Assembly: GCA_029559035.1 (NCBI GenBank)
Contig: JAKQCT010000065.1
Span: forward strand, 121,346 to 185,345
Length of the DNA: 64,000 nt
Direction of reading: 5' to 3'
From: Acidobacteriota bacterium
Lineage (GTDB): Bacteria > Acidobacteriota > UBA4820
Shown here: positions 4,624-51,118 of the stretch, piece by piece
How the letters are laid out: every line of letters begins with the position of its first letter
Position numbering within the stretch: position 1 is the stretch's first letter
The notes under the pieces: model-generated
Databases searched by the model: none
What the model was told of the DNA's origin: nothing
What the model saw: the letters and a program-made list of their open reading frames with translations, nothing else
Made by a program: the position numbers and the translations under genes

Positions 4624-4686
4624 TTATTCTATACCTTCCTTTGAAAATATTCCCCCGCCCTTGGGCTTTCGCTTCGGGGCGGGGGT
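4624..4686 (-). terminator. GC-rich hairpin, copy 1 of a ~62-bp repeated terminator-like element
   Basis: tattctataccttcctttgaaaatattcccccgcccttgggctttcgcttcggggcggggg. On the minus strand the hairpin is followed by a weak T tract. Lies downstream of the 4781-5467 gene. Confidence 0.6.
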
Positions 4687-7199: not shown

Positions 7200-7261
7200 T
7201 TATTCTATACCTTCCTTTGTAAAAAATCCCCCGCCCTTGGGCTTTCGCTTCGGGGCGGGGG
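7200..7261 (-). terminator. GC-rich hairpin terminator, copy 2 of the ~62-bp repeat
   Basis: tattctataccttcctttgtaaaaaatcccccgcccttgggctttcgcttcggggcgggggg. On the minus strand: stem CCCCGCCC/GGGCGGGG then ATTTTTT, just after the 7308-9179 gene. Confidence 0.75.
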
Positions 7262-10907: not shown

Positions 10908-13900
10908 TCATTCCTTTTCCATTTCTCTGATTATTTTTATCGTCTCGACGCTGACGGTGGTGACGCGGCGGAGAAGGTCGATCACTTTATCCTTGTAGTC
11001 GGCGAAGCGATAGGTATTGAACTTCTCTGCGATGGTTGGGTCTTTCGGCTTCTTTTCCTTGTACTGGTCGAGAATCCATTCGAGGGCGGAGCGGTTGCCC
11101 AGCTTGTAATCCCAGGCCTCCTTCGGCACGCCCTTGAGGAAGGATAGCTCGTCAAGCTCGATGATTCCCGTTTCCTTGTCGGCTTTCAGCTTCGCCTTTA
11201 TCCTGGGCTCGCGCTTGTAAAGCGGCTGTGGCTCGCATACTTCCTCGCGCAAAAGGTCCTTCTGTCTTTTGACCTCGGCCTTTGTTTCCATTTCCACAAG
11301 ATCAAGGGCAAAAGGCTCAACGGACTCGTAATTGATATGCAAATCCATCAGCTTCTTCCCCCAACCCGCCCACTTCCGGAAGTCGGCATAGAATGGAATG
11401 CGGGAGAATTCCCGCTTCAGGTTCAGCTCGTATTTCTTGCGGTACGCGGGATCGTGAAGGACACCGTAGCAGTAGTGAAAGATATCCTCTTTCTTAATCT
11501 TCTTGTCCGAGTAGTGCTCACTGAACTGCTCAAGTCCCCAATCGGTGATGTTGTCGATCCTCTCACCGGTGGGAGAGTAGCGGTAGAGGGGATAATGACA
11601 AGCTCCCCCATAAAAGGAATTATAATCAAGAATATATTTTGTTGAGAATGGGCTCCATTGAACACCGTTGAGGCTATTGATAATTATGCAAATATTACCT
11701 GGAAATATACTATTCAGTTGGTATTGCATCTCATTAAGCTCTTGGCTGAAGTAGAGATTGCGTTTAACGAATGGTCTGTATAGGCTCTCTGTTATCAAAC
11801 GCTCATTGAAAGCATATTTTTTACCTTTTAACAGATCATTTTTAACCGCTCTGGTCCATTTTATGGAATAATCAATCTCGGCCTTAATTTCTTCTTTCTT
11901 TTTTCCTTTAAGCTTCTTCAAGTCGCTATTATAAACATCGATAAGGTGCTGTACCTTATTCTTTAAAAGCTGAGAATCATCATCATAAACCCACTCATCC
12001 CTTGCAGTTACAACGCCAAGCGAGAACAACTTAAAAATAGCGTTCGAGCCTCTTCCAAGCTTCACATCTTTGGATGCAAGTGGCAGAAGTTCATCCCAAT
12101 TATTTTCCTCCGCCAAATTGATCCAATTGTTGTTTTTATCTGGCTTCGCTGGAGTGAAATGAAGCTCGGAAAGGTTGCCGACTTTCAGGTATTCTTTCTT
12201 TTCTTCGCCCTTGGCGTAATCCTTGATGGCGTTGTAATAGACCTTGAAGCCGGTCTCCTTCTCGTTCTTCACCAGAAAATAGACCGCCACGCCGACCCTG
12301 ATTAGATCGCTAAAGACGTTGCCGCCTTCTCTTTTTCGCCTTTCACCGCTTGTCCTGGCGTTTCCTTTCAAGTCTATGATGTGCAGTTCGTTGAATTCCT
12401 CTGAGACACACTTCCGAAAACCGTCATAAGTCCTCGAATCGATGAAGGAATTGTTGGAAACAAAGGCGACGATCCCGTTCTTGTCTACTCTATCGGAGGC
12501 CCAGCGCAGAAACCTTGCGTACATGTCATAGACTTTCGTTTTTTGTGCGGTGCTGTGCTTGATGTAGGTTTCCTTGATCCTCTTGTCTATCGAGGGATAC
12601 TCGCGGTTCTTGTTGTTCTCGTTCTCGTTGAGCTGGTTCGCGTTGTAGGGCGGATTGCCGATGATGACGGATATCTTTTTGGCGTTCTGCCGCTTGATCC
12701 TTTCGGAGTTCTCGGAGCTGATGGCGAAAAGGCTGTCCTGTTTCGCGAAGCGCTTCAAATCCTCGCCCAGGCTGTGCTCCAATCCTTTGATGTTGTCCAG
12801 CGTGTCCACGAAGCAAAGGTTGGGAAATTCGGCGTATTGCCCCATCTTTTGCTTGTAGGTGTATTCGATGTTGAGGTTGGCGATGTAGTAGGGAAGGATC
12901 GCCACTTCGTTGGCGTGGATCTCGTTCTTGAACTTGTATTCAAGGTGGTCTTTCGGTATGGCGTGTTCGATCACTTCGCAGATGAATGTCCCCGTGCCGG
13001 TGGCGGGATCGAGTATCTCGACGTTCCTGTCTGCGAGGGTCTTTCCGAAATGCTTGTGAAGAAGGTAGTTGGTGCTTCTCACCATGAACTGGACGATCTC
13101 GTTGGGGGTGTAGACGACGCCAAGCCTGTCTGCGGCCTTGGGGTTATAGACCTTGTAGAAGTTCTCGTAGAGGACTTTGAGGAATTTCTGCTTCTCGTGG
13201 TGGTCGGCAATCCCGGCGGCGGTGGCGTTTATCGCCTCGTAGTAGTGGTCTATCGCGTCAAGAAGGTTTCTTCTCTCCTCGCGGGTGAAGAGCTTCGCGA
13301 CCAGGTTTTCAAGCTCGGCGGCTATCGTGTTGTGGCGGTGGAAGTCGGGGTCGTCGAAGATCTTGTTGAAGATGTCGCTCGTCAGGATATGCTGGATCAT
13401 CATTTCCCTGACATCCTCAAGGGTGACGGCGGGGTTTATCTCCGCCTTGCAAAGGTCGAGAAACTTGCGGCGGGCCTCAATGTATTCGCTTTTTGCCTCG
13501 CTTTCCTCGACGATCTTTTTTCTGAGGGTTTCAACAATTACGGGTATGTCCGCCTTGAACCTCTCTATCGCCTCTTCGAATTTATAGATGGTCTCGCTTT
13601 TGAAATTGATGAACTGCCTGATGATCGCGTCAAGCTGTTCGCTTTTCTTGAAATCGGCCTTTTGAACTTCCTGCCCTCGCTGGAAAAGGACGGCGGAATG
13701 GCTGTCCTCGAAAAGGATATTGGTCAAGGGATAGCCCTTTCGGACTTTCGCCTCGATCTCGGCCGCCATGTCGTCCTTTTCGTCCTTGCTTTCCCACAGG
13801 CCGACATCAAGGCCCCAGAGGTTCTTCACCACGCCGTCCGGCTTGACCTTCTTGCCGTAGGCGCCCATGACATAAAGCTCGGGCACGACTTCGTAGTTCA

Positions 13901-14027
13901 AGGTGCGGGCATAGGCGTTAAGGAGGTTCAGGAATGGCGTTCTGATGGCAAGTTCGTTCCTGCTCTTGCCGTATTTATACGCCCTTTCCACATTTTCGTA
14001 ATATTCGTTGATAAGAAGCTTAGACAT
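10908..14027 (-). CDS. Restriction-modification enzyme: PD-ExK-like N-terminus plus N6-adenine methylase plus type ISP-like C-terminal specificity region (no helicase)
   Basis: 1039 aa. KPDGVVKNLWGLDVGLWESKDEKDD (PD...ExK), ILDPATGTGTFICEVIEHA (motif I), VIIGNPPYNANQ (motif IV NPPY). No Walker A/DEAD motifs seen. Confidence 0.85.
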   Translation of the reverse strand: MSKLLINEYYENVERAYKYGKSRNELAIRTPFLNLLNAYARTLNYEVVPELYVMGAYGKKVKPDGVVKNLWGLDVGLWESKDEKDDMAAEIEAKVRKGYPLTNILFEDSHSAVLFQRGQEVQKADFKKSEQLDAIIRQFINFKSETIYKFEEAIERFKADIPVIVETLRKKIVEESEAKSEYIEARRKFLDLCKAEINPAVTLEDVREMMIQHILTSDIFNKIFDDPDFHRHNTIAAELENLVAKLFTREERRNLLDAIDHYYEAINATAAGIADHHEKQKFLKVLYENFYKVYNPKAADRLGVVYTPNEIVQFMVRSTNYLLHKHFGKTLADRNVEILDPATGTGTFICEVIEHAIPKDHLEYKFKNEIHANEVAILPYYIANLNIEYTYKQKMGQYAEFPNLCFVDTLDNIKGLEHSLGEDLKRFAKQDSLFAISSENSERIKRQNAKKISVIIGNPPYNANQLNENENNKNREYPSIDKRIKETYIKHSTAQKTKVYDMYARFLRWASDRVDKNGIVAFVSNNSFIDSRTYDGFRKCVSEEFNELHIIDLKGNARTSGERRKREGGNVFSDLIRVGVAVYFLVKNEKETGFKVYYNAIKDYAKGEEKKEYLKVGNLSELHFTPAKPDKNNNWINLAEENNWDELLPLASKDVKLGRGSNAIFKLFSLGVVTARDEWVYDDDSQLLKNKVQHLIDVYNSDLKKLKGKKKEEIKAEIDYSIKWTRAVKNDLLKGKKYAFNERLITESLYRPFVKRNLYFSQELNEMQYQLNSIFPGNICIIINSLNGVQWSPFSTKYILDYNSFYGGACHYPLYRYSPTGERIDNITDWGLEQFSEHYSDKKIKKEDIFHYCYGVLHDPAYRKKYELNLKREFSRIPFYADFRKWAGWGKKLMDLHINYESVEPFALDLVEMETKAEVKRQKDLLREEVCEPQPLYKREPRIKAKLKADKETGIIELDELSFLKGVPKEAWDYKLGNRSALEWILDQYKEKKPKDPTIAEKFNTYRFADYKDKVIDLLRRVTTVSVETIKIIREMEKE

Positions 14028-14038
14028 ATATTCCTTCT

Positions 14039-15043
14039 TTAGATCCCTTTTGGTTTCTTTTTCTTTTCCAAATTATAATAAAGTTGTTTGGCTTGATAAT
14101 GTGCTTCAATGTCATCAAGACAAGAATAAAAGAGCTTTTCATTTTCGTCAGCAGTATGGATTGCGTAGCTTAACTCTTCATAGATTTTAACAAAAGATGG
14201 AAATTTTTCTTTCACTTCATCCAATAAGGTGCTCATATAAAATTCAATCGCTTTATCTCCTTTAAGAGATTGACCTTTGCTAACGATCTGTCCTTGTTGT
14301 TCAATCAAAACTCTCAAGAAAAATAATCCCGCAAGCACTTGCCCGCTCTGAAATGCAACGATGGCATTTGACCAGTATTTTGCTACTTCTTTGGGAATGA
14401 CTTTAGGAACCTCAACGTGTTCTATCATGCTGCGACCAGCTATTGTCAGCTTGTCTATGAAGCGTCGAACTAAAAATATTTCCGGCTTACTGTCACATGA
14501 TTGACATTGGTAGGAAAGGACGAAGATTTGCTCTGTATTATCTGTCTCATAAAGATAATCCGGGTGCTGACAAAAATGGGGCAGGGCATCCTCTCCATAT
14601 ACAGGTTTATAAGGCTCTTTCCTTTCGCAATTATTACAAAATAGCTTTATTGTCGGCAGATTGATCACGGCTTCAAACATCTTTTTCCCTGGAAGGGGAC
14701 TCGGGGGTCTTCTATCTTTGCATTGCATAAATTCCCATGGTGCTCTAATAAAATATAACAGCTGCTTCATGACATAAGATTCCATATCATCGTTATGTTC
14801 TGTTTGTTGTCCCATAAGTATTCTTGAAGAACCGCTCGCCATCATAGCGGCAATTGCTTTTTGTGCCTCTTTCTTGATTTGTTCTTGCTCCAGCTTTGCC
14901 TGATCTACAATTGGGTGCCAGTCAATAGATAGGCTTTGATAAAGATGTTTTGTCTCTAAAAGCAGACGGAGATTTTCAGAAATCTTGTTGGATATAATGC
15001 TATGCAGGTCCTTAATTCTAAATTCATCCGGATTCGTCATCAT
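14039..15043 (-). CDS. Zinc-ribbon plus DUF4145-like hypothetical protein, upstream of and in tandem with the R-M enzyme
   Basis: CNNCERK...CQSCDSK zinc-ribbon-like pairs, then AIVAFQSGQVLAGLFFLRVLIEQ (DUF4145-like helix). Ends 11 bp before the R-M gene start. Confidence 0.55.
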   Translation of the reverse strand: MMTNPDEFRIKDLHSIISNKISENLRLLLETKHLYQSLSIDWHPIVDQAKLEQEQIKKEAQKAIAAMMASGSSRILMGQQTEHNDDMESYVMKQLLYFIRAPWEFMQCKDRRPPSPLPGKKMFEAVINLPTIKLFCNNCERKEPYKPVYGEDALPHFCQHPDYLYETDNTEQIFVLSYQCQSCDSKPEIFLVRRFIDKLTIAGRSMIEHVEVPKVIPKEVAKYWSNAIVAFQSGQVLAGLFFLRVLIEQQGQIVSKGQSLKGDKAIEFYMSTLLDEVKEKFPSFVKIYEELSYAIHTADENEKLFYSCLDDIEAHYQAKQLYYNLEKKKKPKGI

Positions 15044-45836: not shown

Positions 45837-48365
45837 ATGATTCCCAGGATTAGTTCTGAAAAGAGACTCATTTTGTTGTTCTCGTTCATCGCTCTGCTGA
45901 CAGGACAGTTCATTTATGCGGAAGTCCGGGGGGTGTGTCCTGACGAGAGTCCAGCGGGAGCGATCGTCGTGACGGCCGACAATGGCTGTTACACGGGGAC
46001 CGACCCTGGGCACGGCATCCGCCCCGGCGAAAGGACCGGGGGGAAGAAGAATGCCCCCGCTCCGGAGAGTCTCTCCGGCTCTTATGTCTCCTTCGATCCT
46101 GCGAACGGCGACGACTGCTGGTTCCCCGGCACTGTGCACAACTTCGCCTTCACGACTGTATCCAGCACCACGGATTGGGAGTATGTATACAATTTATGGC
46201 TGAGGTTTCCAGCCGACTGGACTGTCACTAATGTGGCAGTTGTGGGAACACCGGCCTGCAGTTCCGGCGGTTCATTTGGCACGATGTCCTGGTCCAGCGT
46301 TTCCTCGAACGAGATCAACATCATACATTCTCGTTATCAGGCCACCACGGACACATGTACGGTAACTTATCTTGTAACCGTTACGACGGGCGCCGCGGGC
46401 CCCGACGCTCCGGTCTCGTGGTTCTGGGACGGGGACGGATACGGAAGCGCTCCGCACAATCCCTGCTCCAGTGACAACTATACGCCGTCCGGGCAGAGCG
46501 CGTGCGACCAGGCCACGAACCCTCCGGCCACCGTTCCCGCCTGTTCACTTTCAGGGATCTACCTGTCGGTGAATCCGTCGTCCCAGGAAGCGTGTCCCGG
46601 GGAGGGTGTCACTTATCCCGTAACAGTGCAAAATTATACCGGAGCGGCCGCGACATTCAATATTTCAGTTTCGGGCAACTCCTGGGCCGTAAGCGCCCCC
46701 GCGACAGTGGGGCCGGTCGCCGACAGCGGAACCTCGACATTCAACATAACCCATACGATAGATCCGGCCGCTGCGGACGGAGCGGCCGACACTCCCATGA
46801 TAACCGCAGTCGATCAGGCGAACGCGGCGACCAGCGATTCGGCGACGTTCACAACTTCTGCCGGCATTGAATTCTGGCACACGATTCCCTCTTCTTCCCC
46901 ATCTTGGCTGGGCGCGGGATATCCGTGCCGCGGGTGCACCGCCAGGAACGCTTCGGGGCAGTGGAACACGTATATTATAGGTGACACTTCGGGATCCGGC
47001 CCCGTAGGGTTCTGGGCCTACAATCATTCGACCAACGTCTGGAGCCAGCCGGGGCCCTCGGGGCTTCCGGCGGACCGCTGGTCCCCGGGTTGGGCGTATG
47101 ATCCGGATACGAACCTCTGTTACATGACGGGCGGAGCCAATACGCCCGGAGGCGGAACTTACAACACGGCTTACGCTTACGACCCCGTTGCGAACGCCTT
47201 TACGGCGCTGCCGAGTTTCACCACGATAAGAGATTTCCATAACTCATGGGTAGGCACCATCGACGGAACGAAATATCTTATTGTCGGCGGAGGAGTGAGC
47301 GGCGCATCAACATACCTGAGTTCGACTCAATGCCTCAACCTCAGCACCAGCACATGGCAGGCGGAGAACACGGTCATGCCGGCGTATTCGTTCGGAGCAC
47401 GATGGGGTGCGGCCGAAGGGTTGACCGGCAGCCGGTTCTGGGTGGCCTCAGGAGCCGACGGCTCAGGAAACCTTGTCACATCCGCATATTACTTTGACGA
47501 TTCGGACAACGCGTGGCACGCCGGCGGCGATGTCCCGACTCCGGTTTATCGCACGAACGGAGCAGTATCCGGTGGCGACTTTTACGTTATAGGAGGCTCC
47601 ATCGGCGGGTTCTCTCCATCGGATGCCGTCCAACGCTACTCGGGAGGAACATGGGAAACCCTCGACCCGATGCCTCACAGCAGGATGGACCTAGTCTGCG
47701 GAGTCGGCGCCGATGAGAATATATGGGTCGTGGATGGATACACGACTGCAGCGGGGTCCGATTACGTGGATTACCTGGAGTTCTGCGAGGGAACGGGCGG
47801 ATGCCCAACGATAACACTTTCCCCCGCGACACTTCCCGAACCAACCGTGGGTCTCGCCTACAGCCAGACGATAGCGGCGTCAGGCGGAACTGCGCCTTAC
47901 ACATACGAGGTGACATCGGGCGTTCTGCCGGCGGGCTTGACGCTTGATCCGGCGACCGGAGTCATTTCGGGGACGCCGACCTCGGCAGGCTCTTACACTT
48001 TCACCATAACGGCGACCGACGCGGCCGCCTGCACTGGAACGATAACCTACACGATGAACATGGGTTACGGGTGGAACCTGTCCGTCGTGGACGACGCGGG
48101 CCGCGCGAGCGCGTGCCTGAACACGGACACGGGCTACTACGCGTGGACGGTGCTGACGGGGTTCGGGGCAGGAACATACGTGGGGCGCTCCAACGTGACC
48201 TTTGCTTACAACACCTACTACTTCCAGAGTCCCATTCCGAGCGGAATGAACCTGAAGGTGAGCATGACGACCAACAAGGCGTCCGGGAGCTACATGTCGC
48301 CGCCGCTGAGGGAAAGGTCGATCTGCATAGACGCAAACATCACGGACAACCCGGCGTGCCCTTGA
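45837..48365 (+). CDS. Secreted protein: kelch-like repeats, putative-Ig (He_PIG-like) domain and a C-terminal module shared with the 48608 gene
   Basis: ATG at 45837 after gaaggaggagga; [16 protein letters not shown]. Kelch-like [11 protein letters not shown]..., [65 protein letters not shown]. Confidence 0.85.
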
Positions 48366-48607: not shown

Positions 48608-51118
48608 ATGGTACGAAAGAAAGGTTCAAGGTACGCGTTCATTCTTGTCGCCGCGCTGATTCTTATGTTGACCGGATCGGCTGTGAGCGCGCAGGTGACG
48701 GTGTCGAGTCCCGGCAAACCGGTACTGCTGGGCGATTTCACAGGAGGTCCCCGGGCGGATTCCCGCAAATGCCAAGCTGCAGGCAGAACGGAGAGCACAG
48801 GGGCTTTCGAGTCCCTTCTGCCGGATTCCCCGGGTCAGGTCGGGGAGCAGACCGATCCGCCTTCAGGAAGCAAAGCGCCGGTAAGCCTTGTCCTCGACGA
48901 CGGAACAGTCGAAAACAATATCGGTATTGGGGGGTCCTGGGAGATGCTATGGGTAAACAGGTTCACTCCCGCGCCGGGGGAATTTCCATTCAATCTCACG
49001 GAAATGCAGATATATTTTGAATCGGCAGGCGCGGTCAATATCGGCGACGATATCGTGCTGGTGGTTTACGAGAACACCACCGGAAATTCCGATCCGGCGG
49101 TTGGTTCAAACCTTATTTATACTCAAGCTGTGACCGTTCAAGCTTTGGACGCGTGGAATATTTTCACTCTGACGACCCCCGTGGCCTTCACAGGTCCCGG
49201 CGATGTTATCATAGGCGCCATAGGACTGGAAGTTCCGGGAACGAGCTACTGGCCTGCCGCAATAGACCAAACCGCCACCCAGGGCCGCTCATGGGCCGGA
49301 TGGTATCTGGCCAGTCCTCCGCCCGCTTCGCCGACACTTCCGCCAGATGATACCTGGATCCTCATCGACACTTACTTCCCCGGGAACTGGCTGATAAGGG
49401 GTGTCGGCGCTACCGGGTCGTGCGTGCCCTTTTATGAGCAGCCTCTGAGCACAATAAACACCAGTGCCTGGGTCGACCAGGATTTCCCCGACATTCCCGC
49501 TTACAGCTCTTACCTGGCTGACGATTTTACCAATGCCGCTCCCTGGACGATAGATGTGATAACGACCCCCGGTGACGGCTGGAACTCTTTTACGACACTG
49601 ATGAACGCGACCAGCCTTAACTGGGCAATCTACGCCGACAACGCGGGAATTCCCGCCGGCTATCCCGGAGACGGCGTGACGACTCCCGAATGGAGCCTGA
49701 GCCTTTCCCCAGGAGACGCGAGCGTGGTGCTGTCGAACGGGACCCTCGGCCTGCCCAGCAACGTCGAGGTCACCCTTTCGGCGCCGCCCACAATCCCGGC
49801 GGGGACCTGGTGGCTGATCTTCTGGCCCGTTATGAATTTCAGTCCTGACGGGCAGTACGGACGGCAGGGGTCTGATACTACAAACGGAAACATGGCGAAA
49901 TTCATCAATCCCGGAGGGGGGTTCGGCTACGGTACCGCGTGGCAGGACTGGACAATCCTGAGCCCCGGCCTGCAAGACATGGCGTTCTCCTTCTGCGGGA
50001 CCGAAGGGTCCGGCTCGGCGTGCGACACGCTTCTCAGCGAGAATTTCGATTCGGCGGTCCCGAACGCTCTTCCCGCGGGATGGATTTACACGGTGACGAA
50101 CTGGCCGTCCGGCACAGAACCAAGGTGGTACACTAACGCCGGGACGCACTACCCTTCTGGTATCGCGGCGCATTCTGCGCCCAACGTAGGCTATTTCAAC
50201 TCCTATAGCGTGGCCTCTCCAAAAAGCGCACGCCTGCACTATACAACGCCGATCGATCTTTCTACTTACGATGATTCGGCGGCCCTCAAATTCTGGATGT
50301 ACCACGATACCGGATATACATCGAGCGCCGATAGAGTCCAGCCTCAGGTGTCAACGGACGGCGGGACCACCTGGATCGACGTTGGAACAGCGATCAACCG
50401 CTACGACGGGACCGTCCAGTGGACAGAGCACACGGTCGACCTGACGGCTTATTGCGGACAGCCGAGCGTTATGATAGGCCTTCACGGGATAAGCGGCTTC
50501 GGCAACGACTGCCACATTGACGACATTACCGTCGAAGGCTGCCAGTCGACCGGGGGATGTTCGATCACCATCGCTCCCGCGACTCTTCCCGACGCCACCG
50601 TGGGTCTCGCCTACAGTCAGACGATAGCGGCGTCAGGCGGAACTGCGCCTTACACATACGAGGTGACATCGGGCGTTCTTCCCGCGGGCCTCACCTTGAA
50701 TCCGGCTACGGGGGTCATTTCGGGTACGCCTACGTCGGGAGGCTCCTACACCTTCACGATAACGGCGACAGACTCCGCTGCCTGCACGGGAACGATAACC
50801 TACACGATCAACTTCGATTACGGATGGAACCTCTCCGTGGTGGACGACGCGGGCCGCGCGAGCGCGTGCCTGAACACGGATACGGGCTACTACGCGTGGA
50901 CGGTGCTGACGGGGTTCGGGGCAGGGACATACGTGGGGCGCTCCAACGTGACCTTTGCTTACAACACCTACTACTTCCAGAGTCCCATTCCGAGCGGAAT
51001 GAACCTGAAGGTGAGCATGACGACCAACAAGGCGTCTGGGAGCTACATGTCGCCGCCGCTGAGGGAAAGGTCGATCTGCATAGACGCAAACATCACGGAC
51101 AACCCGGCGTGCCCTTGA
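48608..51118 (+). CDS. Secreted protein: adhesin/jellyroll-like region, putative-Ig (He_PIG-like) domain and shared C-terminal module
   Basis: Signal peptide [88 protein letters not shown]-terminal ~98 aa identical to the 45837 gene. Confidence 0.85.

Follow-up and report, generated by a model that had tools for sequence, protein, structure and literature searches.

Within the 64,000-nucleotide stretch of DNA analyzed here (the window), a gene for a 1039-residue restriction-modification (R-M) enzyme follows a gene for a 334-residue zinc-ribbon protein, raising the question of whether the two constitute a defense unit or whether the enzyme acts by itself beside a gene of separate origin. An earlier note had reported two genes on the same strand 11 nt apart, and both open reading frames were indeed found at that place on the minus strand (Table 1). 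Both are real genes rather than chance reading frames because the enzyme matches known proteins from end to end, and they are close enough that co-transcription and translational coupling could occur.

Table 1. Features of the enzyme gene and its upstream neighbor, with positions in the window
Feature	Position	Strand	Basis
DrdV-like Type IIG/IIL restriction-methylation enzyme, 1039 aa, single polypeptide without helicase	10908..14027	-	Pfam, PADLOC and PDB matches; motifs
Nuclease active-site stretch PD(63-64)...E79xK81 of the enzyme	13785..13841	-	Pattern; aligned to the same DrdV residues
Methylase motif I, DPATGTG (340-346), AdoMet binding	12990..13010	-	Pattern search
Methylase motif IV, NPPY (458-461), N6-adenine methylation	12645..12656	-	Invariant in 74/74 aligned proteins
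Type_ISP_C specificity (target recognition) domain, residues 663-1018	10974..12041	-	Pfam
11-nt spacer with AGAAGGA ribosome-binding-like stretch ahead of the downstream ATG	14028..14038	-	
334-aa distant DUF4145-family protein	14039..15043	-	Profile-profile comparison; alignment with three relatives

The 1039-aa enzyme belongs to a known kind

Pfam assigned an ISP_coupler, an Eco57I/N6 methylase and a Type_ISP_C specificity domain to the enzyme and detected no helicase domain in it, while the PADLOC model for Type IIG restriction-methyltransferases, 1024 positions in length, matched the entire protein (E=3.7e-294). The best match in the PDB was DrdV (7LO5/7LVV), with enzyme residues 1-1038 aligned to residues 1-1026 of the chain at 1075 bits (E=0). 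DrdV is classed as a Type IIL R-M enzyme in PMC11842806 and as Type IIG in PMC10201449; it is composed of an N-terminal nuclease, a central methylase and a C-terminal recognition domain, acts at the asymmetric site CATGNAC, cuts 10 and 8 bases downstream, and forms a tetrameric cleavage complex (PMC10201449). The two proteins align over their full length, are of similar size (1039 aa compared to 1029 aa), and have the same domain order and the same PD..ExK, DPATGTGTF and NPPY motifs. Nuclease, methylase and target recognition thus share a single polypeptide of about 1000 aa that is homologous to DrdV throughout, with the nuclease residues (PD at 63-64 and E79-S-K81) and both m6A methylase motifs intact, and the enzyme is of the DrdV type.

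These matches bear out the earlier description of an ISP/IIG-like R-M enzyme, and a pattern search confirmed the PD...ExK-like N-terminus, the methylase motifs and the lack of a Walker/DEAD motor, with no Walker A, DExx or SAT motif detected in the 1039-aa protein. The same note had regarded the helicase-less layout as a departure, a view that has to be corrected: since DrdV has already been described with such domains, a helicase-less ISP-like enzyme is of a described kind, and this layout is normal for known DrdV-type IIG/IIL enzymes (PMC4872093, PMC10201449).

Relatives of the enzyme were collected by a scan of bacterial and archaeal genomes, and the best 80 of 167 were kept. Nearly all of these 80 match enzyme residues 1 to about 1036, and they came from Bacteroidota, Ignavibacteria, cyanobacteria, Chloroflexi, Nitrospirae, Acidobacteria, gamma- and deltaproteobacteria, Campylobacterota and other groups. 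In an alignment of 74 proteins (the query and 73 relatives), all but one of the relatives (72/73) were 997-1186 aa long, which leaves no room for a helicase; the absence of a helicase is therefore the family norm. P63, D64, E79 and K81 were kept in 72-73 of the 74 proteins (73 for each of the last three), and the least conserved stretch, at residues ~701-800, fell in the recognition domain. Walker-like and DExx-like patterns were seen in two relatives of 1005 and 1038 aa; a helicase was rejected in both, given that the chains are too short, and the patterns were taken as chance. One relative, of 1395 aa (L043 1080-5267), carries about 350 additional residues.

The single chain runs from an N-terminal PD-(E)xK nuclease through a helical coupler and a gamma-class N6-adenine methylase to a target-recognition domain at the C-terminus. 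The analogy with DrdV predicts that the enzyme slowly methylates one adenine in an asymmetric site, that it cuts unmodified DNA not far downstream in an ATP-independent manner after several bound copies have assembled, and that it requires no partner. The enzyme differs from DrdV in its diverged target-recognition region and in the odd gene beside it, and its recognition site is probably not CATGNAC.

Conservation and genomic setting of the gene pair

The earlier note had proposed a two-gene defense cassette, and co-conservation of the pair was set beforehand as the test of this proposal, a test that the cassette does not pass. When DrdV-like loci (best 80 of 167) were searched by tblastn, no relative of the 334-aa protein was detected (0/80, some loci having short flanks only), and a four-sequence profile with all filters off gave the same count at these loci (0/80, again with some short flanks); none was detected beside the second enzyme copy in the host genome either. 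In the reverse direction, no DrdV-like gene was found beside the relatives of the 334-aa protein (0/3 loci): two of them, at L090 and L093, stand alone, and the third (L089 2121-9629) shares its island with a Type III methylase and a SIR2/HerA pair, all named by eye. The 334-aa family comprises the four members found, so few that an infrequent though genuine association would escape detection. More broadly, no constant partner gene, upstream or downstream, accompanied DrdV-like enzymes across the loci examined.

Close upstream genes of DrdV-like enzymes elsewhere vary and include those for an enoyl-CoA hydratase (-13), ThiG (-9), an M1 peptidase (-42) and a PemK toxin (-2). The 11-nt gap is therefore uninformative; because family members sit just as close behind housekeeping genes, the short gap to the upstream gene is no evidence of partnership. 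On the downstream side, the DrdV-like enzymes at L004, L008 and L015 have a common gene of ~600 aa directly after them, and a GmrSD_N match was obtained in 3/29 scanned close downstream neighbors, probably those at the same three loci.

The GC content of the 334-aa gene is 38%, compared to 49% for the enzyme gene and 60% for the flanking subtilase (protease) gene; within the enzyme gene it is low around 11600-12100 and drops to near 0.35 where the recognition region is encoded. A genome of the same family retains the subtilase and MFS genes, and the R-M pair is absent beside them; the location is therefore accessory, as the earlier note had held. No repeat flanking the gene pair was found, and promoter and terminator matches around the pair were at about chance level. 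Elsewhere in the window, direct repeats of 300 nt (47809-48108 and 50562-50861, 86% identity) and of 62 nt (4624-4685 and 7200-7261, 95% identity) are present.

Operons that combine DUF4145 with R-M genes, and fusions of the two, have been reported (PMC3710099, PMC3506569). In the phylum of the host, DUF4145 is fused to long restriction-subunit-like proteins at L118 and L121, and at L108 (3-2073) the coding region for a DUF4145 zinc-ribbon protein extends into the start of an adenine-methylase-like gene downstream of it, which exemplifies the known link. A cassette in which the DUF4145-like protein regulates the R-M enzyme, or backs it up as an effector, would fit these links, the same-strand arrangement with its 11-nt spacing, the remote DUF4145 homology described below, and the Type III methylase and SIR2/HerA pair near the relative at L089. 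However, the absence of the neighbor from the 80 loci and from the host second copy, the location of its relatives away from DrdV-like genes, the difference in GC content between the two genes, and the equally tight spacing seen with plain housekeeping genes all argue against a cassette, and we consider it unlikely. The locus very probably holds a DrdV-type IIG (IIL) R-M enzyme that is self-sufficient and, next to it, an accessory gene that was acquired separately and does not encode a regular subunit; this 334-aa gene may be co-transcribed with the enzyme here.

The 334-aa zinc-ribbon protein

The 334-aa protein had no match in Pfam, NCBIfam, PADLOC or PDB. Neither this protein nor its relatives matched PF13643 (DUF4145) above the Pfam curated cut-off, and PF13643 gave no match at the place of the gene in its own genome even at E<=10. 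Its family was found once in that genome, with no further relatives in 199 and then 347 sampled genomes of the phylum and none in phages, plasmids and viral contigs; two relatives came from a sample of 396 genomes in the phylum to which G199 belongs (the source genome of a Prolixibacteraceae locus), and a third from a class-level genome sample. Two weak matches in the L039 phylum sample (19.5 bits), located in Type III restriction-subunit-like proteins, were rejected as chance. Common to the four family proteins are KHLYQ, the CxxC pairs C136/C139 and C180/C183 (invariant in the three relatives), an LRxxIEQ-like helix and H296.

A profile of the four proteins was compared by hhalign with 13 true DUF4145 zinc-ribbon proteins from the phylum of the host. 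The two aligned with E=6e-7 and a probability of 92% in local and 94% in global mode, with the zinc ribbon and helical domain collinear, while controls consisting of 40 column shuffles and one reversed profile reached at most 0.6%. As judged by profile-profile comparison only, the 334-aa protein is thus a rare, distant relative of DUF4145, which belongs to the HEPN superfamily; the DUF4145-like neighbor with two CxxC pairs that the earlier note had described is invisible to Pfam and significant at the profile level. In both families, a helical domain comes after the two CxxC pairs, and an R..(I/L)E helix and a final H are conserved in it. Unlike DUF4145 proteins, the 334-aa protein has no Pfam match of its own, begins with an extra helical N-terminus bearing KHLYQ, and ends in HEPN-like helices from which the conserved R and N are missing. 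A structure predicted from the single sequence had a mean pLDDT of 38, too low to be of use.

HEPN RNases use the R, N and H residues. With the register set by eye, the last helix reads like LRxxGNxAAH in DUF4145 proteins of the host phylum and YxxLSxxIH in the 334-aa family, in which H296 is invariant and R and N are replaced by the invariant Y288 and S292. Because the R and N of the HEPN site appear to be lost, a step weakened by this manual register, a role as an RNase toxin is unlikely, and our best guess is that the protein probably functions in binding and not in RNA cleavage. A specific role with the enzyme would draw its support only from adjacency and from the general association of DUF4145 with R-M genes (PMC3710099, PMC3506569). 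It is quite improbable that this lineage recruited the protein, as a rare and non-catalytic zinc-ribbon adaptor of the DUF4145 type, for the control or redirection of the DrdV-type enzyme; if it did, Type IIG systems would have a previously undescribed accessory layer.

DUF4145 has been placed in the HEPN superfamily, and most of its members keep the R..N..H active-site motif (PMC3710099). Membership by profile would therefore suit a toxin with RNase activity that, on failure of the R-M enzyme, kills the cell or stalls it, but with Y288 and S292 beside the remaining H296, and with no antitoxin-like gene adjoining the 334-aa gene, such a toxin is very improbable.

Type ISP enzymes and the second enzyme copy

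The Type ISP enzymes LlaGI and LlaBIII (PDB 5FFJ, 4XQK) match the 1039-aa enzyme only from residue 154 (440 and 411 bits), from which point the coupler, methylase and specificity domains are homologous. The N-terminal nuclease part differs, no SF2 helicase-like ATPase lies between nuclease and methylase, and the enzyme is about 370-540 aa shorter than the LlaGI and LlaBIII chains in these structures. The common coupler and specificity domains could point to a degenerate Type ISP remnant, minus its helicase and with methylase activity only, but this is extremely improbable with DrdV far closer in score over the full length and with nuclease residues that are intact and also kept in relatives of equal length.

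The host genome carries a second copy of the enzyme (G000:C30:4799-7918) that is 79% identical to the first. The methylase is conserved between the two, whereas the recognition domain is the most divergent part (about 42% at residues 761-800), and the two copies probably recognize different sites. With this degree of identity and a divergent recognition region, they represent a natural pair for specificity studies. In the locus of the second copy (L102, G000:C30, 4799-10922), the enzyme gene is followed by genes for a TIR-APAZ-like protein (451 aa) and a short Argonaute (500 aa), which PADLOC models identify as a SPARTA-like pair.
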